This document shows positions 14,067-40,106 of a stretch of 45,815 bases of DNA, piece by piece. A program made the position numbers and the translations under genes. The DNA is from Candidatus Omnitrophota bacterium (GTDB taxonomy: Bacteria > Omnitrophota > Gorgyraeia > 1-14-0-20-64-10). The stretch covers positions 1 through 45,815 of the forward strand of contig JAHFFE010000010.1 in the NCBI GenBank assembly GCA_023248155.1, written 5' to 3'. The notes below the pieces were generated by a model. It worked only from the letters and a program-made list of their open reading frames with translations. It had not been told where the DNA came from and did not search any database. How positions within the stretch are numbered: the first letter of the stretch is position 1; each line of letters begins with the position of its first letter.

Positions 14067-15443
14067 TTATTCGCGCTCTTTTTTATCCGGGTTCAAGCCG
14101 ATCAAAAATTCGGCGTTGGTCTTGGTCTTGCCAAGCCGGTCAATCAGCAGCTCCATCGCTTCATCGGTGCTGAGCTCGCGCAGTACTTTGCGCAGAAGCC
14201 AGATCCGCTTGAGTTCTTCCGGATCGAGCAGTAATTCTTCGCGCCGCGTATTACAGCGCTGGATATCGAGCGCCGGATAGATCCGCTTCTGGAACAGCGT
14301 ACGGTCCAGCGTGATTTCCATGTTGCCGGTCCCTTTAAACTCTTCAAAAATCACTTCGTCCATGCGGCTGCCGGTATCGATCAGCGCCGTGGCGATGATC
14401 GTGAGGCTGCCGCCCTCTTCGATGCCGCGGGCCGCGCCGAAAAACCGCTTTGGCTTTTGCAGCGCCGTGGCATCCACGCCGCCGGTCAAAATGCGGCCGC
14501 TGTGCGGCGCGACCGTGTTATAGGCGCGCGCCAGACGCGTAATCGAGTCCAGCAGGATCACCACATCCTTCTTATGCTCTACCAGACGCTTCGCTTTTTC
14601 CAGAACAATTTCAGCGACCTGGATATGCCGCTCGGCCGGCTCGTCGAAAGTCGAGGCGATCACCTCGCCTTTGACGGAGCGCTGCATGTCGGTCACCTCT
14701 TCGGGACGCTCATCAATCAGCAGAACCAGCAGAACCGCCTCGGGGTAGTTCTGCGTCAGCGAATTGGCGACTTTCTGCAGCAGGATTGTTTTACCGCTGT
14801 ACGGCGGCGCGACGATCAAACCGCGCTGGCCCTTGCCGATCGGCGCGAGCAGATCCAGGATGCGCATCGAGATCTCTTTCGGATCGGCAGTCTCCATGCG
14901 GAAGCGCTGGTTCGCGTAAATCGGCGTCAGGTTGTCGAACAATATTTTTACCTTGGCCGCGTCGGGGTTTTCCATATTGACCGCTTCAACCTTCAGCAGC
15001 GCGAAATAGCGTTCGCCTTCCTTGGGCGGACGGATCTGGCCGCTGACGGTGTCTCCGGTGCGCAGATCAAACCGGCGAATCTGGCTGGGCGACACATAGA
15101 TATCGTCGGGACCCGGCAGATAATTGTAGTTGGGGCTGCGCAGAAATCCGAAACCTTCCTGCAGAATTTCAAGCACGCCCTCGCCGAACATGTTGCCTTC
15201 GCGCTCGGCCTGCGCCTGCAGCACCTTGAAAATAAGGTCTTGTTTCTTCAAGCCGGAGATTCCCTCGATGGCCATCTCTTTCGTGAGCTTGGTCAGCTCG
15301 AGAATGGTCATCCGCTTCAGCACCGCGATGTCGAGGTTTTTCGGCGGTTTGCCGTCGGCGCCGACCGCCGCGCGCGGTTCCGGCTTTTCGGCCCGTTCCG
15401 GGCGTTCTTTTTTTTCTTTTTCTTCCGATATCCGTTCTGCCAT
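14067..15443 (-). CDS. rho: Transcription termination factor Rho
   Basis: Hexameric RNA helicase that ends untranslated transcripts. With the ATG at 15443 (AGGAG 7 bp before it) the protein has 458 residues: a charged Lys/Glu/Arg-rich start (1-35), the Rho N and cold-shock RNA-binding domains ([20 protein letters not shown]), the P-loop APPYSGKT (212-219), [13 protein letters not shown], and the RNA-contacting [22 protein letters not shown]. The family P-loop usually reads APPKAGKT or APPRTGKT; Tyr-Ser is a departure, but the catalytic GKT is kept. It starts 3 bp after the coaE stop. Confidence 0.97.
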
Positions 15444-15445
15444 TT

Positions 15446-16072
15446 TTATTCTCCTGTAATACGTTTCCAAATAGATGAAACCTGTTTGCCCGTTTGCCGC
15501 AAAGATCCTGCGGTATTCACAATAAAATCAGCCCGTTTTTTCTTCTCGCTCAGCGGCATCTGAAACGACGCGCGCCGGCGGATTTCGGCAACCGGCAAAC
15601 CGGACCGAGCCCGGACGCGCCGGACCACGGTATTCCAGGGAGCGGCTGCCACCACCACCGCGTCGACGCGGTAGGACGGCCGTGACTCCAACAAGAGCGG
15701 AACATCCAGAACCACCGCCTTCAGCCCCGCACGGCGGCGCAACCGCGCCACCGACTGCAAGATCGTGCGATGAACAGCCGGATGAATGATTGTCGTGAGC
15801 GCTTTCAGCTTTTTTGGATCGGAAAAAACAATTTTTCCAAGCGCGCGGCGATTGATCGTTCCATCGCGCGAAAAAATCTCCGGACCGAACCGGGCTTTGA
15901 TTTTTTTTGAAACAGCGGTGCCCGGCTTCATTAACGCATGCGTCACCGCATCGGCATCAAGCACCACGGCACCGAGGCGGCCGAACAGACGGGCCACCGT
16001 TGATTTGCCGGTGCCGATGCTGCCGGTGATGCCGATCAACTTTATACGCGGTTTAGTCGTGCGACGCTTCAT
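15446..16072 (-). CDS. coaE: Dephospho-CoA kinase
   Basis: Last step of CoA synthesis: phosphorylates the ribose 3'-OH of dephospho-CoA. The 208-residue P-loop kinase has [14 protein letters not shown] (about 14-27), the LDADAVTH substrate segment, IHPAVH and LDVPLLLES. It overlaps the end of polA by 20 bp, and its own end contains the rho Shine-Dalgarno site. The neighbourhood polA-coaE-rho is a known conserved string in several phyla. Confidence 0.95.
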
Positions 16073-20639: not shown

Positions 20640-21664
20640 TTTATTTCCTCCTCTACGCGAAGATCCGGAATAGAATTCAACTCCATCGAAGAAAGCGGCG
20701 GCAAATAACAGCCCAGCCCGGCCACCATCGTTCCATTGTCGGTGCACAAACTCAACGGCGGAACCGCCAGCGCGATTTTTTCTTCCCGGCAAACTTCGGT
20801 CAGCCGCTCGCGCAAGCGGCGGTTGGCCACTACGCCCCCGCCCACCGCCAGCCGGCGGATACCGGTCTCGGCGCAGGCCAATACTGTTTTTTGGACCACC
20901 TCTTCCACCACCGATTCCTGAAAACTGGCCGCCATGTCTGAAGTAAAACTTGCGTCGAGCGGACCGGCATTCGTTTTCTGGTGATCGCGCACTTTGTACA
21001 ATACCGCGGTTTTAACGCCGCTCAACGAAAAATCGTAAGGCGAGCCGGTCTTGATTTTTGGCGGAAGAAACCGGAACGCCCTGCGGTTGCCGCCCTCTGC
21101 CACGCGCTGAATCTCCGGCCCGCCCGGAAACCCAAGGCCCATCAATTTCGCGACCTTATCGAACGCCTCGCCGACGGCATCATCGCGCGTCTGGCCCATT
21201 AAATGAAACGCGCGGATTCCCTCGGCGCGGACGATCGCCGTGTGCCCGCCGGAAATAATCAATCCGACCATCGGATCCTCGACGCTCCAGGGCATCTGCT
21301 CCATCAGCGCCGCGTACAAATGCGCATGCAGATGATTGACGGCCACCAGAGGTTTTTTCCAGGCCAGCGCCAGCGCCTTGGCGGCAGCCACGCCGATCAC
21401 CAGCGACCCGGGAAGACCGGGACCGTGCGTAACGGCGATACGGTCAATCTGTGACGGGGTGATTCCTGCGCCCTGCAAAAGATTTTCAAGCTCGGCCGTC
21501 ATCACTTCGACGTGCGCGCGGCTGGCGATTTCAGGGACAACGCCGCCATACCGCTGATGCTCTTTTAAACTGGTGGCCAGCTGCGCGCCTAAAATTTTCC
21601 GGCCGTCTTCAACCAGCGCCAGTCCCGTTTCATCGCAGGAGGTCTCAATCCCTAAGACTAACAT
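20636..21664 (-). CDS. tsaD: tRNA N6-adenosine threonylcarbamoyltransferase TsaD
   Basis: Transfers the threonylcarbamoyl group to A37 of ANN-decoding tRNAs together with TsaB and TsaE, which are not in this window. The 342-residue protein has LGIETSCDETGLA at the start, the metal-binding HLHAH (H111, H115), THGPGLPGSL and the C-terminal TDNGTMVAGLG. The ATG at 21664 has AGGAG 5 bp upstream, so the 11 residues that an earlier in-frame start would add are rejected. A GTCAT-type repeat pair fills the gap upstream. Confidence 0.96.
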   Translation of the reverse strand: MLVLGIETSCDETGLALVEDGRKILGAQLATSLKEHQRYGGVVPEIASRAHVEVMTAELENLLQGAGITPSQIDRIAVTHGPGLPGSLVIGVAAAKALALAWKKPLVAVNHLHAHLYAALMEQMPWSVEDPMVGLIISGGHTAIVRAEGIRAFHLMGQTRDDAVGEAFDKVAKLMGLGFPGGPEIQRVAEGGNRRAFRFLPPKIKTGSPYDFSLSGVKTAVLYKVRDHQKTNAGPLDASFTSDMAASFQESVVEEVVQKTVLACAETGIRRLAVGGGVVANRRLRERLTEVCREEKIALAVPPLSLCTDNGTMVAGLGCYLPPLSSMELNSIPDLRVEEEIK

Positions 21665-21692
21665 TGATTCTCCTGTTCTTTTTTTCTTTATT

Positions 21693-21757
21693 GTCATTCC
21701 GAGATCGACCTTGCTCGGAATCTTTCAAGATGCTGAGCAAAAACTTCTCAGCATGAC
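21693..21757. repeat. Inward-facing pair of GTCAT-family hairpin repeats
   Basis: Two copies face each other between tsaD and the deacetylase gene. The left copy (plus strand) is GTC-ATTCCGAG...CTCGGAAT-CTT; the right copy (minus strand) is GTC-ATGCTGAG...CTCAGCAT-CTT (8-bp stem at 21730-21737/21747-21754). Stem bases differ between copies but pair within each, as expected of a REP-like element. The hairpins could also slow or end transcription between the two genes. Confidence 0.8.
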
Positions 21758-21773
21758 AGATCCATCTCATTAG

Positions 21774-27233: not shown

Positions 27234-27262
27234 ATCGTAGCAAATGACGGGTTTACTGTCTA
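27234..27262 (-). promoter_or_regulatory. Candidate promoter of gatCAB
   Basis: TAGACA and TACGAT, 17 bp apart on the minus strand, with the -35 overlapping the stop codon of the giant gene. The -10 ends 6 bp before the ATG at 27227, which would make the transcript leaderless. The -10 match is mediocre. Confidence 0.4.
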
Positions 27263-30200
27263 CGCGGCTGTATCGGTGGCGACGGCCTGTACCCACTCCT
27301 GATAAGTTCGTTCATCTACCGGCGCAATGCCGAGGAATTTGCCCAAACCCTCCAAATCGCTCGGCATCTGAATCACATAGGTGCCTATTTCTCTCTGCCA
27401 GGCAGAAAGCTGAATATCAACCACCACATCTTGCCACTTTTTATCAGAGGTTTCCGACAAAATAGTCCATTGGGCGGTTACTGTATTAGGCAACAACGAT
27501 TCTATGGCTTGTTTTTGTTCCAGATCATCCACGATAATCGCCACCGGGATTTTTTCTCCCTGGTACGGCTTAAACAGATGTAGTACGCGGGCTGACTCTA
27601 CCGCCATATCCGGCGTAAGAATCAATAGTCTCTGTTGGCTGGCAATTACGCCAACCGGTTTAAACAACCGCTGCCCTTCTTCCAAACCACTGGTAGCGGG
27701 CTGGCGGGCTCCCAACGAAACGGGCTGTCGCTTCACGGCCTTTTCCAGCATGGCAATCCGATCAGTCTCGGTCAGGAAGTTTTCATCATGAAACCCCTGG
27801 ATTAATGCCAGCGCATTTTTCCCCGGGGTTAGAGCGCTCTGACCGTCAGCCGTACTCCGCAAATAAACATGAACCTGATTCATGTCCTGACCGGCGGTCT
27901 TCCGCACATAATTCAACACCCACTCGGCCGCGGTCCGGTCACGGCCCGGCGTAGCCTTTCCGGGCTGCAAACCGGTTTCTCGGAATTTTTCAAACAGATA
28001 GAACCAAAAGAATGCCTCGGCAAAATCGTCGCGCTGTTCCTGTACTAACCGGCTCATTAAATCAACCGCTCCCTGCGTTTGGCCTGAAATTTCCACCAAA
28101 TCATTCATACTCCTGGGTTCATTACGAACCTTCTCGGGGTTCCAAACCGTCTGATCCAACGGCGAATTCGGGCGAATGACCGCCTCGGTGACAAAATGCT
28201 TCTGAAAAGCATCCAGCTCCGGCCGACTAAAAACATCGCTAAAAAAATAGGCGGCCCAGAGATAATCCCGGGCATGGTTAAGCTCCTCATCCCGCGATAC
28301 CTGCTCCCCAAAATAATTCAGAAAAAGTTCCGTTTGCCCCTCATACAAAGACCGGACCAAAGCAATCGCTTCCAGTGGAATCCCATAACTTTTCGCCTGC
28401 GCAAGAAATTCCCTGTAGTCAAATTCAACTTGTGATCGAGCTTGTCCCGGATCATATGCGCTGATGTTTCTAAAAGCCCACCCGCGCACAAAACCCGACG
28501 GTTCCTTTTGTTTCAACTGGGTTTGCAACCGGGTCTCCCAGGTAAATGCCCGGCCATCCAAGTAAGGAACTTGCTTCCAGGGACGTTCTATCGTGGCGTA
28601 GGTAATCAAATTTACCACTGGAGCAAAAATGAATTCAGCCCCCGCCCTCTGATATAACTGATAGTGAAGCATCTCTACTAAGGCGGTAAATTTTTTCAGG
28701 TCCAAAAGACCGCGGTAAGAATCCAGGCCGGGAATACCCGGATAAACCTGCGCGATCCGATCGACAATATTGGAATCTGCTGTCTGTAACGAGTACCCTT
28801 TCGCTAGGGTCTCCTTATATTTCTCAAACAAAAACTCCGCCAAGGATCTTAACTCGGATTCCGGAACTTGAATCGCCCAGGGAGGATTGTTCGGAGCAAT
28901 CATCTGTTGGGGAGCAGACGGTATTAGAGGAACCCATGAAGTACTTGTTTCTTTAATAAGAATCATGTCGTTTACCGCGGGGTCGAACCGGAGCGCGCGC
29001 CGTTCTTCCAAACCGGCGGAGGTAACCTGCTTAAACCATTTTTGGATGGAATCGGCCGCCTCCAGAGAAGGCTTTAGCAATGCCGAATCAAATTGTTTAA
29101 CTTCTGCTGCCTCCGGCAAAATAATCTCACGAAACGGCAGAGCCATAAACTGGTTAAAGAATCCCCTAGACCAGGATTTCCATTCCGTATGATTCCCGAA
29201 AATCAGATCCCAGTTGCGCGTCTGTTGTAAATGTTCCTGATTGTTCAGCCAAACCACCGCTTCCAACGGAACAAACCCTGGCCGTTCCTGCAATTGAGTT
29301 TCATAACGGATCGCTCCGCCCGAATCTTCGTCTTCAACACGAACCGCATTCGACAACGGAAGGCGGGTCTTTAAGGAAGAAAGTTTGTTCACATTTTCCG
29401 GCGGCAATCCGGCGTAAAAACGGCTTCCGATTTTAACGACCAAAACCCAGTCATCGACGCGATACTCCCACGCGGCAGAGTCTCCAGGGCTGGAATATCC
29501 CCGTTCTGGATCTCCGGCAGCGACCGCGCTCAATAATGACTTGCCGGTGCCGGGAGCGCCCAGCACAACGATCGCTTTTCCGCTCTGTTTATGGACCAGT
29601 AAATCGGCATGCATTCGATAAGCGCTCATTCCGCGCGGACGCTTGGGAAGCTGGTCCAGCTTGGCATAAACATTCTCTTTGTCGGCAATTGCACCGTCTT
29701 CATCGTCGCTGACCGCCTGCAAGAAATTCGCCCAGGTTCCGCCGCGTGAAAAAGTGCCCTGCCTGTTGCCAAAATAGGTCCGAAATAAATCCGGCGCTGC
29801 GTACAACGCGTTGAGCCCGTCAATAATGGGATCACCCGACTCTTCCAAACCGCCTGCTTTTTCAGACGACTTTGGAGCGGCGGTAGGTTTCGGGATATAC
29901 TCGTCGGCCCAGTTTCGAATGTAGGCCATTCGACCATCTCCCGTTAATATTCCCCATATCTGAGCAAAATCCCAACCACGGTAATAGTTGATTAGCGTTC
30001 CTATTCTTACCGTTGTTTCATGCCATGTCGCGTTCTCATCGTTCTTGAATTTTCCCAATTGGCTCTTTAAACCCTTGTCCAGCAAAGCGACATTGACCTG
30101 CCACTCCCCGTGATCGGCAGCCCATGTCCAAACACGCTCCGGGCGCCTCTCGATCGTAACCCCCAAAATCGAGAATAAATCCGGTATCTGATTCGGACCT

Positions 30201-33200
30201 TGCTGAACCGCCTCGGCCACAAACAACTCATCCAGACGCCCGGCAGACGACAACTCCCCCATTAGCTGAGATTCTTTACGGTTTGGATAAACCGTCCGAT
30301 AGAGCGTTAGCAACGACCGGCGTGTCAGGATCATCTCAACAACGAAAACTCTGACCCGCGGCTCTCGAATCTCTCTGGCCGCTTTTGTGCTGGATCCTCC
30401 ATTGGTAGAACGTTTTACCCCTTTTTCTACGGTCTCTTTGGCTTTTTTAATTGCCTTTTGAATATCAGTAGCAACGTCTGCCGACCTCCCTACTAAATCT
30501 GCCAGACTGGAAATCTGCACGACTGGAAGAATTGACGTTCGCAAAACCCCTTCAATAATGTCACGAATCTGCGCATCTGTTGCGCCCAACGCAATGGTAT
30601 CGCTTGGACCAAGACCTTGGTCATGCGCTTGAATCGCGGCAACCAACGCGTTAACCAAATCCTCTTGTGAAACGGATGCCGGAATAGAAGCTCTTGGGCC
30701 AGTGGCGCCTTCCATAAAATCATTATCCCGATGCAGTTGTTCCAGGTGGGTAATAAAAGAAGCATCGCCCAGCAACCGAATTAATTGGTCTCGATCCACC
30801 GATCTCAAAAGCAAAGAGAGCAAACTCGCGCGATAAGAACCGGGATAGTCCTCTTCGGCCAACGACCGATGAAGCGCTTTCCACGGAATAGAAGCCCGCG
30901 CCTGTGAAATCACCCATTGCTCAAGATCCCATCGAATGAGCCCGTTCAAAAGATCGGCCAACAAACGGCTGCCTTCCTGCTGTTCCCTATCTCTCTCTGT
31001 CAAAGTCGTAGCGGCCAATGCATCCGGATCCGCCAATTCTAAGAAGGTTCCCCAATCCGAAATAGATTCAATGTTTCCTTGCGCGTGAATCCGGTCCGGT
31101 AGCGAAACGTCGGCATGTTTCCAAACCGGAGGAGATGGCTCATCCACTGCCGAGTCTGTCGTCATTTCGAGGCCATCCGGCTGAGAAATCTTGCCTCCCA
31201 GAACGAGATCTCTCGCGGTTTCACCGCTCGAGATGACAGAAGTAGCTGTCGAGCTCGAGATGACATCGTTCGCCGATTGCCCGGAAGAATCGGTCGCCGA
31301 GTCATCCGATGTTAACGTCTTGGAATCATCCACGCCGGTTTCCGCTTCCTTACGTGCAAGATCCAGTCTTGCCTGTGCATCTGCAAGACTGCCTTTTTTT
31401 ATTTTTGTTACAGGAGTCGAGGCAATTCTGTTTCCCAACTCCCAGAACCATCGGCCATGCTTAGCCAATGCAGGGCTCTGCGCATAATAACCAAACGAAA
31501 TCCAAACATCTTCATTCTTAAGAAAAGCAATCAGGGCTTGAGGTGTCCACCCCTTCGGAACTACGATGACGGAGTCTCGAATCTCCGGATGGTCCGCGGC
31601 ATGTACATGCCACCACTGATTCGCCAGATAAAACATCAGGAATTTAGCCCCGTATTGAGTCCTTTGATCGTTTGCCGCCCTTTGAAAATATTTGGCAATA
31701 AAAGCCTGCAGATTTTCTCTCGCTTCAAGCGTTGCGAGAATCGTCCGAGTAAATGCCCGGTGACGGCCACTCGTAAACAGCTCCGGAGACTCTTCGAAAA
31801 GAGTGGGACCGGATTCTGGTTTCTCCATGAGATCCAAATCCTTATCGGTAACCTGTTTCAAATCTATTTCAACCACCCGCACAGGAGCATTTAAATTCAC
31901 CGGAGGTTTTTGGAGCACAGAATACAACGGAAAACCAGAATGACCGGTGGTAAAAAACATGGGGGCAGCTCTTTTGGATGGAGGATGTTGCTCTTTCATG
32001 GAAGAAACCGGCGTGGCGCAGCACCGTACTGCCAGCAAGAACGCCCTTCGATTTTCAGAGAGAGAGTCCCATGTTTGTTCAGGATATTTCTCCCAATGAG
32101 TGCGGAAATGCTGCTGCATAGAGCCAACATCAACCCCTTCCGGAAAATAGAGTCGATCCATTTTTGAGGAATCGGAGACGCCACGCGCGATATAATAAGC
32201 CGAATTGGCGCCGAGTATGACCAGTATCTGCAGAACAGCGCGCGCGTTGTCGTCGCCATTAATCCAATTGGGCGACGTCTCTACTACTTTAAGCAATCTG
32301 TTATATTCCCCGCCGATCTCACCTACGCCCGGAAGAAACCGAATAATGGTCAATGGCAGCGCCTTGGGATTAACCGAAGGAACGGTTTCTACCATTTTTT
32401 TTGTCGGCGTAACCGCCAGCCGCATTGAAACCTCGTAACTACCGGCCGATTTTGAAGCTCCCGCTTCAGAAAGTACCTCAGTCAATCCGGGTTCCGATGC
32501 TATTTGTTCACGCAAAATTTTCTGAAGATCCACCAGATCCATTCCTTCCGGAAGATTGAGCTCGTTTATGGCAAGAGGGTCCAACCCGGATTTTCCAGCT
32601 GCGTTAAGTCCAATAACAATACCCATCTCCACCCTGTTACTTGCTTTTGAATCCGAACGAAGGGTTGGGGTCACTCGAAGCGCTATTTCCTTAGAGGCTT
32701 GATGCCATGTTCCTAGGGGACTTTCCCCAATTCGATAGCGCCGAATGAGCAGAATGGGCGCATCCGTGTTAATGGGCGGAACCAATGCTGCGGCTTCCAC
32801 CATTTTACCCACCGGCGTAGTGGCCAAACGGATTACAAATGGAAGAACTTCCGGTTTTCCAGGAATTGTAGAGGCATCGAGAAATTCAGGGGTCGATTGC
32901 ATATATGAACGCAACTGGTCCTGAAAAACCGTCTTATTCATTCCTTCCGGAAAATAGACTTCTCTTATTTCAAGAGGTTCTATTCTCCCTTCGACAGACA
33001 TCGAGTTAATCCCCAGCAATACACTGATTTGGGCCAGCTGTCTTAATTCTGCATCCGTGATGTCCGGACCATGGATCACCTGCTTTGCCAGTTTCAGAGT
33101 CCGATCAAATTGCTGTTGATATTGCTGCCCTATTTTCCCTTCTCCCGGTTTAAAGCGGCGGATCACTAGCCGCCGTGCATCCACGTTAATCGGCGGAACC

Positions 33201-34636
33201 GAGGCTCCCACCATTTTTTCAACGGGTGTAGAAATAACCCGCGTAAAAAATGCCACGGAATACGCGGTAGTTGGACCTCTCTTTTGAGGGCTCCTAGCCC
33301 ACTCGAACCGGAAGGAGTCCTGGAGAGCCTGCAAAATAACGCCCTCGGGCAGATAGATCCATTGAATCTGCTCCGCATCCGTAACATCTCCCAGATATTG
33401 TTTGTTGAAAACAGCCAATAAAACAACCTGGGCAAGTCTTGGCGATTCAACCGCTGTTTCGAGAGAATTTCCCAGTACAGAGGCGATCGTGTTATAGGTT
33501 TCCCCTACGGGGCCTACTCCGGGCGTAAAACGGCGAATGACCAGTTCCTGAGCACCCGGATTAATCTCTGGAACCCTGAGAAATTCCGAATCAGCATCTG
33601 CATCAGCATTAATCGGTGGAAGAGGAACCGTTTGCGCAGAACTTGATCCTACAATGGTAGTTTCCCCTGACCCCACGATGGCTGTTTCCGCCGGCGGCTG
33701 GCGGATAAGACCGGGGTTTTCATCCAGCGTGATTTTTTCCACCGGTGTCCGGGCAACCTGGTCAAATAACGCGAAAAACCATGGATGCTCATCTACGGCA
33801 GCCATTCCCCATTCCTGCCGAACGAATCTTTTCAAGTCGGCCGGACTAAAACCGGACGGAACATAGACCACATTTGGCCCGGGGTTGGAGTCGGCCCAGA
33901 GCGAACCTTCGGGGCCATGCCGATACCAACCGTTGAGAGCGAGCAAACTTCGGTATGGGGTCAATGCGCTCAATGAGATTTTTGGCGATCTGACCAGATG
34001 CCGCACAGCTGTATTGAAATGATGATGATTGCCGGAAATTAATGCGGCGAAAGCTCTTCGAAGAGGATCTCTTTTTTCCGGAGTGGAAGTTGGGTCAATG
34101 ACTCCAAGCCATTCACGCTCATTAATATAGCGCAAAGAGTCTTCCCTCATCCGGTCCAATTCTGCGTCGGTGAGCTTTTCGGAATCCAAAACCACCAATC
34201 GAATCGGCACACGGTCAGGGTTTTCTGGCGGAATCGGCTGAACTTCAACCCGAGCGATCCTAGTGATAATCGCCTTACCGCCTTTCTCTGTCCAGCGCGG
34301 AACAATAACCCAAAAAGGAACCACGACATGCTCAAGATATTTACTCAACTTGTCCGGATCGGGGGCTTCGATCACGCCGTTTTTGGTTTCCAATCCATAT
34401 AAAGCCGGAGAAGGATTCTCTAATGCGGCAGGTTTCTCTTCCAGACTGGAAGAAGCGGAATTTTGGCGAAGCCGGTTGCTTAACTCATCCTTGGCCGCCG
34501 GTGATTCTTCCAAACCAGTCGGACGCAAAGCGTGGGCATACGAAGGCGAAAACACCATGCTAACGATCAGCAAAGCGCTTAAAATTCTGGAAAATAAAAA
34601 CCGCCTCTCGACGGTAATCTTATTGTGGCTTCTCAT
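27260..34636 (-). CDS. Giant exported GLEE-motif protein with tandem modules and an HprK-like P-loop
   Basis: No named family recognised. With the ATG at 34636 the protein has 2458 residues. It opens with a signal peptide (1-36, ending YAHA) and LRPTGLEES. Six related modules follow, each about 105-170 residues: an IRRF-type strand (near 150, 364, 487, 627, 761, 918), a YFPEG/YVPSG turn in most, and a closing TPV(E/G/T)KM-type motif (near 296, 469, 606, 742, 874, 1071). Residues about 1125-1159 come from a hairpin repeat. A helical part leads to an HPr-kinase-like nucleotide site (GAPGTGKS 1693-1700, VDDW 1727-1730). Exact GLEE tetrapeptides start at 41, 1596, 1875 and 2317, near apparent domain borders. 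The start was chosen by alignment with the paralogue at 38426-40069. An ATP site in an exported protein is odd. Confidence 0.85.
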   Translation of the reverse strand: MRSHNKITVERRFLFSRILSALLIVSMVFSPSYAHALRPTGLEESPAAKDELSNRLRQNSASSSLEEKPAALENPSPALYGLETKNGVIEAPDPDKLSKYLEHVVVPFWVIVPRWTEKGGKAIITRIARVEVQPIPPENPDRVPIRLVVLDSEKLTDAELDRMREDSLRYINEREWLGVIDPTSTPEKRDPLRRAFAALISGNHHHFNTAVRHLVRSPKISLSALTPYRSLLALNGWYRHGPEGSLWADSNPGPNVVYVPSGFSPADLKRFVRQEWGMAAVDEHPWFFALFDQVARTPVEKITLDENPGLIRQPPAETAIVGSGETTIVGSSSAQTVPLPPINADADADSEFLRVPEINPGAQELVIRRFTPGVGPVGETYNTIASVLGNSLETAVESPRLAQVVLLAVFNKQYLGDVTDAEQIQWIYLPEGVILQALQDSFRFEWARSPQKRGPTTAYSVAFFTRVISTPVEKMVGASVPPINVDARRLVIRRFKPGEGKIGQQYQQQFDRTLKLAKQVIHGPDITDAELRQLAQISVLLGINSMSVEGRIEPLEIREVYFPEGMNKTVFQDQLRSYMQSTPEFLDASTIPGKPEVLPFVIRLATTPVGKMVEAAALVPPINTDAPILLIRRYRIGESPLGTWHQASKEIALRVTPTLRSDSKASNRVEMGIVIGLNAAGKSGLDPLAINELNLPEGMDLVDLQKILREQIASEPGLTEVLSEAGASKSAGSYEVSMRLAVTPTKKMVETVPSVNPKALPLTIIRFLPGVGEIGGEYNRLLKVVETSPNWINGDDNARAVLQILVILGANSAYYIARGVSDSSKMDRLYFPEGVDVGSMQQHFRTHWEKYPEQTWDSLSENRRAFLLAVRCCATPVSSMKEQHPPSKRAAPMFFTTGHSGFPLYSVLQKPPVNLNAPVRVVEIDLKQVTDKDLDLMEKPESGPTLFEESPELFTSGRHRAFTRTILATLEARENLQAFIAKYFQRAANDQRTQYGAKFLMFYLANQWWHVHAADHPEIRDSVIVVPKGWTPQALIAFLKNEDVWISFGYYAQSPALAKHGRWFWELGNRIASTPVTKIKKGSLADAQARLDLARKEAETGVDDSKTLTSDDSATDSSGQSANDVISSSTATSVISSGETARDLVLGGKISQPDGLEMTTDSAVDEPSPPVWKHADVSLPDRIHAQGNIESISDWGTFLELADPDALAATTLTERDREQQEGSRLLADLLNGLIRWDLEQWVISQARASIPWKALHRSLAEEDYPGSYRASLLSLLLRSVDRDQLIRLLGDASFITHLEQLHRDNDFMEGATGPRASIPASVSQEDLVNALVAAIQAHDQGLGPSDTIALGATDAQIRDIIEGVLRTSILPVVQISSLADLVGRSADVATDIQKAIKKAKETVEKGVKRSTNGGSSTKAAREIREPRVRVFVVEMILTRRSLLTLYRTVYPNRKESQLMGELSSAGRLDELFVAEAVQQGPNQIPDLFSILGVTIERRPERVWTWAADHGEWQVNVALLDKGLKSQLGKFKNDENATWHETTVRIGTLINYYRGWDFAQIWGILTGDGRMAYIRNWADEYIPKPTAAPKSSEKAGGLEESGDPIIDGLNALYAAPDLFRTYFGNRQGTFSRGGTWANFLQAVSDDEDGAIADKENVYAKLDQLPKRPRGMSAYRMHADLLVHKQSGKAIVVLGAPGTGKSLLSAVAAGDPERGYSSPGDSAAWEYRVDDWVLVVKIGSRFYAGLPPENVNKLSSLKTRLPLSNAVRVEDEDSGGAIRYETQLQERPGFVPLEAVVWLNNQEHLQQTRNWDLIFGNHTEWKSWSRGFFNQFMALPFREIILPEAAEVKQFDSALLKPSLEAADSIQKWFKQVTSAGLEERRALRFDPAVNDMILIKETSTSWVPLIPSAPQQMIAPNNPPWAIQVPESELRSLAEFLFEKYKETLAKGYSLQTADSNIVDRIAQVYPGIPGLDSYRGLLDLKKFTALVEMLHYQLYQRAGAEFIFAPVVNLITYATIERPWKQVPYLDGRAFTWETRLQTQLKQKEPSGFVRGWAFRNISAYDPGQARSQVEFDYREFLAQAKSYGIPLEAIALVRSLYEGQTELFLNYFGEQVSRDEELNHARDYLWAAYFFSDVFSRPELDAFQKHFVTEAVIRPNSPLDQTVWNPEKVRNEPRSMNDLVEISGQTQGAVDLMSRLVQEQRDDFAEAFFWFYLFEKFRETGLQPGKATPGRDRTAAEWVLNYVRKTAGQDMNQVHVYLRSTADGQSALTPGKNALALIQGFHDENFLTETDRIAMLEKAVKRQPVSLGARQPATSGLEEGQRLFKPVGVIASQQRLLILTPDMAVESARVLHLFKPYQGEKIPVAIIVDDLEQKQAIESLLPNTVTAQWTILSETSDKKWQDVVVDIQLSAWQREIGTYVIQMPSDLEGLGKFLGIAPVDERTYQEWVQAVATDTAA
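31161..31264. repeat. GTCAT-family hairpin repeats inside the giant gene
   Basis: One plus-strand copy GTC-ATTTC...GAAAT-CTT (from 31161) faces a minus-strand copy GTC-ATCTC...GAGAT-CT (ending 31237), and a half copy, GTCATCTCGAG on the minus strand, follows at 31254-31264. The stems ATTTC/GAAAT and ATCTC/GAGAT covary. The whole block is translated without a stop codon (about residues 1125-1159), between the module array and the helical region. Confidence 0.8.
34591..34614 (-). terminator. Terminator-like hairpin within the giant gene's signal-peptide codons
   Basis: The minus strand reads CCGUC-GAGA-GGCGG followed by UUUUUAUUUU: a 5-bp stem (one G-U pair), tetraloop and U-tract at +23 to +46 from the ATG. 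The paralogue at 40024-40047 has the same structure at the same offset. It encodes V-E-R-R-F-L-F. An attenuator role is an inference. Confidence 0.55.
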
Positions 34637-34650
34637 CGGGTTATAAACAA

Positions 34651-34679
34651 AGTATCTCACGCCGGATTAAGAATATCAA
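34651..34679 (-). promoter_or_regulatory. Promoter of the giant GLEE gene
   Basis: TTGATA and GATACT, 17 bp apart on the minus strand. The -10 ends 14 bp before the ATG, so the leader should be about 8 bases; no Shine-Dalgarno sequence is present. Spacing and -10 equal those of the paralogue's promoter (40078-40106). Confidence 0.7.
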
Positions 34680-38425: not shown

Positions 38426-40069
38426 TTATGCGGAGGTAATAACAGCGTAGAGTTTGTCGTTCAATTGAACGAACGTAATGGAGTTGATGTCCATGTCCGG
38501 CACGTTGCGATTGGCCAGCGACAATTCTGCCATGGCCCTTAGATTCTGCGCAACACGAGCTGCATCTCCTGAGAATAGCTGTTTGGCTTTTTCAGGGCTG
38601 ATGCGCACCGCAGCCCGCGGACTCACCTGCGGCAACCACAAACCAGGACTCTCTATAATTCCCGAAACTTCGTTGTTCAGAACCACCAGAACCTTTTCGG
38701 GATGCTTAGGACCTTGCTCTGACCAATAGGTCGAAACAGCTTCTAGATTATCGCTCAAGATATCAAAGCGGGTGTCCGGGGGCTGATTTTCGGGAGGAAG
38801 AATTCCAACCTGGAAGTAGGTCGTCGGCAATTCAGATTTCAGATTTACTTCCACAACCGCCACCGATGTTCCGTCAACTTGAGGAACAAACTCTCCAAGC
38901 TGATCAACCGCAATGGCCTGCTCCACCACCGTTCTCTCATCCGTCTTAGCAGTAACCGGATTGGCAGGCACAGTGAGTGTACGGCGTTCTTTAGCGAAAG
39001 AGGCGAGTTTTTCAGCGCGCGTAACGATTTGGTCTGCTAGCACGGGAGATTGAGCCCCTTCTGATATAATCTCTTCGATGACCGCGTCTCGCTGATGGGG
39101 TGCTGGATTCTCAAGTTGACCCCGCAGAAGCGCCATTGCCTTATAAGAAAGACCAAATTCCGCAGTAACACGACCCGCAGCAAAAAAAGCTTCTGCGGCT
39201 GTGAAACGCTTATCCCAAGAAGCCCACCTGAGAAGATCATTGACTAACTGGGCAATGGTATCAGCAGGCATTTCCAAATACCGTTGAAGAATTCCCGTTT
39301 CAAACTCTGGATGATGATAATTAGGAGACTCCCTTAGAAGCCGAATTGTTCTTTGAATAGCTGTTCCATCGACAATCTCAGGAACCACGAGCTCCTCCAA
39401 ACCGGATTGCTTGGCACCAACTAATGGTTTTACACTCTGAACAAAAGCCCACGCTGTTAAAAACGTTGAGTGCTTAAATCGATCTCCCATCTGCCGATGA
39501 GCTTCCTCCATCTCAGAAACCAAAGAGGGCTTCCGTAAAATATCTACACTATTTTTCGAAAGCCCCTCATCCGTGTAATGAAGAATCAGTAGCTCAGACA
39601 AAACTGTTGGCGCAATGCGGACAAAAAATTCCTGCTCGTCTGTTGGTAAATTCGCATCCTGTTGAATCTCATAAAGATCCCGCAGTCCATCCAGCGTCAG
39701 TCCGGCTTCTGCAAGCTTAAGACGATCCGAATGTTTCTCATAGACCATTTGAAGTCGCGCCATAGACGAAGCGGCTTGATCTCCGAACCATGCTGCTCGA
39801 AGAGCAGACGCAATGGAAACTAGAACTTGTAATCGACGCTCTATAACAGCAAACGATTGTTCTTCCAGACCACTGCCAATCATCTCTGGTTTACTTCGAA
39901 GCTTCTGGACGAGATCGGCTTTAGTAGCATTCGAGGATTCTTCTAGACCTGTGGAGCGCAACGCATAGACATGATGAGCTGGAAACGCGATGCTAATGAT
40001 CAGCAAAGCACTTAAGATGCGCATAAATAAAAACCGCCCTTGGGCGGAAACTAACTTATTGTTTTTCAT
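38426..40069 (-). CDS. Exported GLEE-motif protein, 547 residues, paralogue of the giant
   Basis: No named family recognised. The N-terminus MKNNKLVSAQGRFLF, ILSALLIIS core and YALRSTGLEES align without gaps with the giant protein's first 45 residues, and the 5' DNA is also very similar. GLEE tetrapeptides start at 41, 67 and 223. Between and after them lie mostly helical segments (about 75-210 and 230-380) and a C-terminal beta/alpha part (SVAVVEVNLKS onward) that resembles the VRVVEIDLK strand of the giant's last module. A cleaved signal peptide implies export. It stands upstream of the foldase operon, so together with the giant gene it brackets surA-pdxA-ksgA. Confidence 0.82.
   Translation of the reverse strand: MKNNKLVSAQGRFLFMRILSALLIISIAFPAHHVYALRSTGLEESSNATKADLVQKLRSKPEMIGSGLEEQSFAVIERRLQVLVSIASALRAAWFGDQAASSMARLQMVYEKHSDRLKLAEAGLTLDGLRDLYEIQQDANLPTDEQEFFVRIAPTVLSELLILHYTDEGLSKNSVDILRKPSLVSEMEEAHRQMGDRFKHSTFLTAWAFVQSVKPLVGAKQSGLEELVVPEIVDGTAIQRTIRLLRESPNYHHPEFETGILQRYLEMPADTIAQLVNDLLRWASWDKRFTAAEAFFAAGRVTAEFGLSYKAMALLRGQLENPAPHQRDAVIEEIISEGAQSPVLADQIVTRAEKLASFAKERRTLTVPANPVTAKTDERTVVEQAIAVDQLGEFVPQVDGTSVAVVEVNLKSELPTTYFQVGILPPENQPPDTRFDILSDNLEAVSTYWSEQGPKHPEKVLVVLNNEVSGIIESPGLWLPQVSPRAAVRISPEKAKQLFSGDAARVAQNLRAMAELSLANRNVPDMDINSITFVQLNDKLYAVITSA
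40024..40047 (-). terminator. Terminator-like hairpin within the second GLEE gene's signal-peptide codons
   Basis: The minus strand reads CCGCC-CAAG-GGCGG then UUUUUAUUUA: a 5-bp GC stem, tetraloop and U-tract at +23 to +46 from the ATG, the same offset as in the giant gene. By form it is a good intrinsic terminator, yet it lies in codons 8-16 of the reading frame. Confidence 0.6.
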
Positions 40070-40077
40070 TACAATAG

Positions 40078-40106
40078 AGTATCGCTTATAGAATGACTTT
40101 TGACAA
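40078..40106 (-). promoter_or_regulatory. Promoter of the second GLEE gene
   Basis: TTGTCA and GATACT, 17 bp apart on the minus strand. The -10 ends 8 bp before the ATG, so the transcript should be leaderless or nearly so. No Shine-Dalgarno sequence is seen. Confidence 0.7.

Follow-up and report, generated by a model that had tools for sequence, protein, structure and literature searches.

A short hairpin (H1) running directly into an invariant U-tract recurs at the 5' ends of a handful of genes, within the codons for the signal peptide; the large proteins that they encode are mostly unrelated. Its stems exceed what synonymous codon choice yields, and together with the invariance of the tract this makes selection on nucleotides at H1 and the U-tract likely. 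We tentatively favour, at a confidence that stops somewhat short of probable, the reading that H1 with its U-tract acts as a pause or partial terminator close to the promoter and is maintained by such selection. Two of the genes lie in the window, by which we mean the whole stretch of 45,815 nucleotides analysed:

27260–34636, minus strand: gene 1, encoding a giant mosaic protein; ATG at 34636; signal peptide MRSHNKITVERRFLFSRILSALL..., with ALRPTGLEES
34651–34656, minus strand: -10-like box GATACT of gene 1, 14 nt 5' of the ATG
34591–34614, minus strand: H1 of gene 1, with stem arm CCGTC (34614–34610), loop GAGA, stem arm GGCGG (34605–34601) and U-tract TTTTTATTTT (34600–34591)
38426–40069, minus strand: gene 2, encoding 547 aa; ATG at 40069; signal peptide MKNNKLVSAQGRFLFMRILSALL..., with ALRSTGLEES
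40078–40083, minus strand: -10-like box GATACT of gene 2, 8 nt 5' of the ATG
40024–40047, minus strand: H1 of gene 2, with stem arm CCGCC (40047–40043), loop CAAG, stem arm GGCGG (40038–40034) and U-tract TTTTTATTTA (40033–40024)

A Pfam search gave no match for either protein. In both, the GLEE motif is repeated internally (AGLEES, AGLEER, SGLEEG), like joints between blocks; residues 1872–2328 of gene 1 share 44% identity with a block in another gene of the set (C24:104828), and there are partial matches to two neighbouring genes in G002:C21.

The sequence-only reading had described a hairpin with a U-tract at +23 to +46 in both genes, and direct inspection bears this out (CCGUC-GAGA-GGCGG-UUUUUAUUUU in gene 1, CCGCC-CAAG-GGCGG-UUUUUAUUUA in gene 2); an extra A-U pair is possible in gene 1 (ACCGUC/GGCGGU, using the first T of the tract). 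The likeness to an intrinsic terminator, also proposed there, is sound, as the stem abuts an exact U-tract on the sense strand just 3' of a -10-like box, and the view of the mRNA as leaderless is likewise supported, the leader probably being short or absent and lacking a Shine-Dalgarno sequence. The equal distance from the ATG holds for genes 1 and 2 but not for their sisters, in which the U-tract starts anywhere from +31 to +49. The 24-mers fold with an MFE of -7.0 (gene 1) and -9.7 kcal/mol (gene 2), at z -2.6 and -2.3 relative to dinucleotide shuffles. Compared with synonymous codons the two stems reach per-gene P-values of 0.06 and 0.10, and a consensus scan of the surrounding 19 kb returned 25 terminator-like sites where 27 were expected, hence no excess. 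By themselves, the H1 hairpins of genes 1 and 2 are not unusual; the significance comes from sister genes.

Searching the same genome with the N-terminus RRFLFSRILSALL...ALRPTGLEES, we found 13 further genes besides the two in the window. In the nine genomes of the family, a profile built from 20 such N-termini matched 203 times at E ≤ 1, and the sample analysed comprises 123 genes that were fetched and located. No relatives outside the taxonomic family were found at E 0.001 among 384 genomes of the phylum, while a pattern scan of named genomes produced 11 matches in other groups. Beyond these N-termini, most of the encoded proteins are unrelated to one another (histidine-kinase ATPase, FHA, GNAT or M48 domains, or no Pfam domain), with some blocks in common, so whole-gene duplication does not account for the common 5' segment.

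The peptide FLF is encoded as TTTTTATTY (TTTTTATTT or TTTTTATTC) in 8 of the 123 genes: the window pair (L023, L025), five more in the same genome (L024, L014, L084, L012 and L011/L026) and one in another genus (L085). A stem touches the U-tract in seven of these eight FLF genes, that is, in five of the six sisters of the window genes. The stems are ACCGTC-GAGA-GGCGGT, CCGCC-CAAG-GGCGG, AACCGCCT-AACA-GGGCGATT (one mismatch), ATGGGG-CCGCGAA-CCCCAT, TCCTACCCG-GAAG-CGGGCGGGA (one mismatch), GCGCAT-TTGG-GTGCGT and GGGGC-AAA-GCCCC. Their sequences are mostly unrelated, apart from the right arm that genes 1 and 2 and L024 have in common by descent. Loss of the stem from a gene that keeps the FLF peptide had been named beforehand as an observation that would speak against the idea; it is seen in one gene of the eight, L012, which has both FLF and the U-tract, while the other seven retain a stem. 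In all cases the frame is open from the ATG across stem and U-tract, which places the terminator-like form inside a translated stretch.

When the protein and the U-tract were held fixed and the upstream codons redrawn synonymously 2000 times, the stem-score sum of the eight FLF genes (116, versus 78 ± 10 for resampled sequences) was never reached (P ≤ 0.0005), nor was their MFE sum (-67 versus -37 ± 7). Without the two discovery genes the stem sum remains significant (P = 0.002 with body codon usage, 0.0005 with N-region usage), as it does for L014, L084, L011 and L085 alone, whose stems are unrelated in sequence (P = 0.001). At other TTTTTATT sites in 345 kb of sample stretches from the same genome, a comparable stem occurs in 6 of 34 cases versus 7 of 8 FLF genes (P = 0.0004). 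Moreover, in five of the eight FLF genes the U-tract is where the region's strongest hairpin ends, a count that codon-order shuffles never reach. The remaining ~115 genes of the family show little or no stem excess over synonymous resampling, and T-tracts in other N-termini are mostly without stems. The proposed comparison of stem with codon constraint across relatives thus comes out in favour of the stem within the FLF set, where it is kept with altered sequence, but not family-wide. We set aside a terminator common to the whole family: some site is present in 24 of the 123 genes and position controls suggest enrichment, yet synonymous resampling nearly equals it. One family gene outside the FLF set, L165 (G008:C74, minus strand), carries in its first codons a 12-bp hairpin, GCAGCGAAGCTT-TCGAA-AAGTTTCGCTGC, followed by TTCTTATCC, that no synonymous resample reaches.

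Codon usage around the tract is uneven. TTT TTA TTT is identical in all six own-genome copies that align there, and the seventh copy, L011/L026, has the same codons at the FLF before its insertion; TTA makes up 7% of Leu codons. In this copy (G000:C27, ~21500–21760) the signal peptide is interrupted after FLFGRIRS and before ALSALLI by an in-frame insertion of ~50 codons, perhaps a mobile repeat that is translated. Among the own-genome copies, the Arg, Ile/Phe and Leu codons right after FLF show variation at, or close to, the random rate, and further on the ALR peptide is invariant, yet its Ala codon is random. Between the codons flanking FLF and ALR there is a largely fixed stretch, AGC GCT TTG .. 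.. ATT AGC .. GCG, which forms a second hairpin, H2, not described in the sequence-only reading:

34551–34579, minus strand: H2 of gene 1, AGCGCTTTGCTGATCGTTAGCATGGTGTT, +58 to +86
39984–40012, minus strand: H2 of gene 2, AGTGCTTTGCTGATCATTAGCATCGCGTT, +58 to +86

The same hairpin is found in L024, L014, L084, L012 and L026 as a near-invariant AGCGC-TT-TGCTGA-TCA-TTAGCA-TG-GCGCT in the hydrophobic-core codons. Pair cells are standard in 97% across the seven own-genome sequences; most of the changes are G-C/G-U or A-U/G-U exchanges and none is double-sided, so the pairing fits an RNA structure but is not proved by covariation. Within the genome the H2 core is confined to the seven genes, apart from a weaker match in one further family gene. 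As a fixed helix of the whole family H2 was rejected, since covariation scans of 115 and 72 genes give no consistent helix, and it stands only for the seven own-genome genes. Position-specific codon preference is visible at columns 11, 13, 19, 23 and 26–27 of the signal-peptide profile (123 genes), and the preferred Leu codon differs by column over nine genera (CTT at 11, CTA/CTG at 13, CTG at 19). In neither scan (115 or 72 genes) does a fixed covarying helix match these preferences, so codon conservation has other causes too. In the other 115 genes, the hydrophobic-core codons have a slightly greater tendency to fold than their synonymous counterparts (z -0.5 ± 0.09).

Upstream, a -10-like box ends 7–14 nt 5' of the ATG in six of the seven own-genome FLF genes, with no Shine-Dalgarno sequence. 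In the N-terminus family, 63 of 113 genes have such a box within 35 nt of the ATG, versus 20 ± 4 in shuffles. From the closeness of box and ATG, transcripts of the FLF genes probably start at the ATG or a few bases 5' of it, and by the end of the U-tract the polymerase would have made some 40–56 nt of RNA. H1 could alternatively terminate the transcript of a gene lying upstream, the true start then being further downstream; we rejected this, as the -10-like box lies 5' of H1, the ATG-FLF frame is open throughout and no common start follows the tract. A terminator for the opposite strand is rejected because no U-tract follows the stem there, and a -1 frameshift at UUUUUA because a canonical heptamer is absent and the hairpin lies upstream, not downstream. 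Searches against Rfam returned only chance-level matches far below gathering scores.

We infer pausing or termination, the start site and ribosome coupling at H1 from these sequence features. On the favoured reading, a short hairpin would form behind a polymerase sitting on a weak U-rich hybrid once those first ~40–56 nt had been made; the polymerase would pause, and some of the complexes would probably end there with release of a short RNA. Such a site would likely serve to control costly genes close to their promoters, with a pause that gives a first ribosome time to load, and abortive release otherwise. H2 probably belongs to the same 5' RNA element, and its role as a regulator site or second pause is a guess. 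The stems of H1 (5–9 pairs) are about half as long as those of clear gene-end terminators in the same genome (10–13 pairs), one of which carries the tract TTTTTATTTG as in the FLF genes; given its shortness, H1 looks like a weak terminator or pause rather than a strong one. Counting against the pause or partial terminator are the short stems, the stemless L012, the ~115 genes without excess, the family-wide codon preferences that no helix matches, and H2, which sits past the U-tract, where a terminator has no need of it.

The sequence-only reading had put forward a translation-gated attenuator, in which the hairpin terminates by default and an early ribosome on the leaderless mRNA prevents its formation, so that full-length mRNA is made only if translated. 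The terminator form within translated codons, the -10-like box close to the ATG in six of seven own-genome genes and the selection on the stem all agree with such gating, which we nevertheless consider unlikely. A ribosome on the start codon covers the RNA up to about +15 to +19. Most stems start at +22 to +29, past such a ribosome, so a gating ribosome would have to load and elongate before the polymerase moves ~50 nt, unless the polymerase pauses first. Alternative stems across the U-tract were found singly in L024 and L012, and no antiterminator pairing common to the FLF genes was seen. In addition, the genome has Rho (gene in the window at 14067–15470, minus strand, PF07497 match at 14961–15182), which already couples untranslated RNA to termination.

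The main alternative to the pause or partial terminator is a translational or RNA-binding element, in which H1, U-tract and H2 would slow the ribosome while it makes the signal peptide, or would be the binding site of a protein or small RNA, the likeness to a terminator being incidental; we think it no more probable than gating. Its best argument is H2, conserved in sequence and pairing and confined to seven genes plus one weaker match. Both hairpins lie within signal-peptide codons, and the weak folding excess in the hydrophobic-core codons of the other 115 genes points the same way. A brake on the ribosome, however, needs no stem ending at an invariant U-tract, the arrangement seen in five of eight genes and in none of the codon-order shuffles; nor is there an Rfam family match or a fixed helix covarying in other genes. 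Chance combined with shared ancestry, whereby GC-rich Arg, Gly and Pro codons beside FLF form small stems that related genes inherit, seems to us the least likely account. It would fit the right arm inherited in genes 1, 2 and L024, the comparable stem that synonymous resampling alone yields in ~2 of 8 genes, the near-null counts for the whole family and the small size of the FLF set. It fits poorly with the unrelated stems of L014, L084, L011 and L085, with a test that stays at P ≤ 0.002 without the discovery genes, and with an invariant tract beside freely varying codons.

Pauses of the his leader type have no U-tract terminator, and H1 differs from them in abutting its U-tract. Specialised NusG paralogs of the RfaH/LoaP type act where very long transcription units begin, with a hairpin or pause at the 5' end; the genome studied here is 98.5% complete and yields a single NusG-domain protein (one PF02357 match) with no evident paralog, and H1 has no shared sequence to recognise, so recruitment of such an antiterminator was rejected. 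A close form is that of E. coli ispU (uppS), whose 5' UTR has a 6-bp stem and eight U at the RNA 3' end (PMC7815308). As in this type of intrinsic terminator or attenuator, a short stem (6 bp there, 5–9 here) leads straight into a U-run close to the transcript's 5' end; H1, unlike it, is placed within signal-peptide codons that are translated, in genes that look leaderless, and recurs in paralogous 5' ends. Coupling between a 30S initiation complex and a polymerase paused near the promoter has been described, for a gene that has a leader and a spacer of >70 nt (PMC12820379). The position of H1 would suit a polymerase held, as at hairpin-stabilised ribosome-loading pauses, within the first tens of codons until the first ribosome arrives, although the FLF genes look leaderless and thus differ from the gene in that complex.

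A broader proposal, which we regard as doubtful, is that at least seven genes of one genome, encoding mostly unrelated large proteins, form a regulon governed by a coding-embedded cis-acting RNA. Its shared 5' element would combine a leaderless start, an H1 free in sequence, the invariant U-tract and the sequence-conserved H2, with the FLF and SALL motifs partly by-products of the RNA. If this is true, the signal-peptide codons would serve both as an export signal and as a transcription or RNA-control signal common to otherwise unrelated large-protein genes, and conserved signal-peptide residues such as FLF may reflect a constraint on RNA, not on protein. These genes would then offer a test case for how cells decide, within the first ~50 nt, to complete a very long mRNA.
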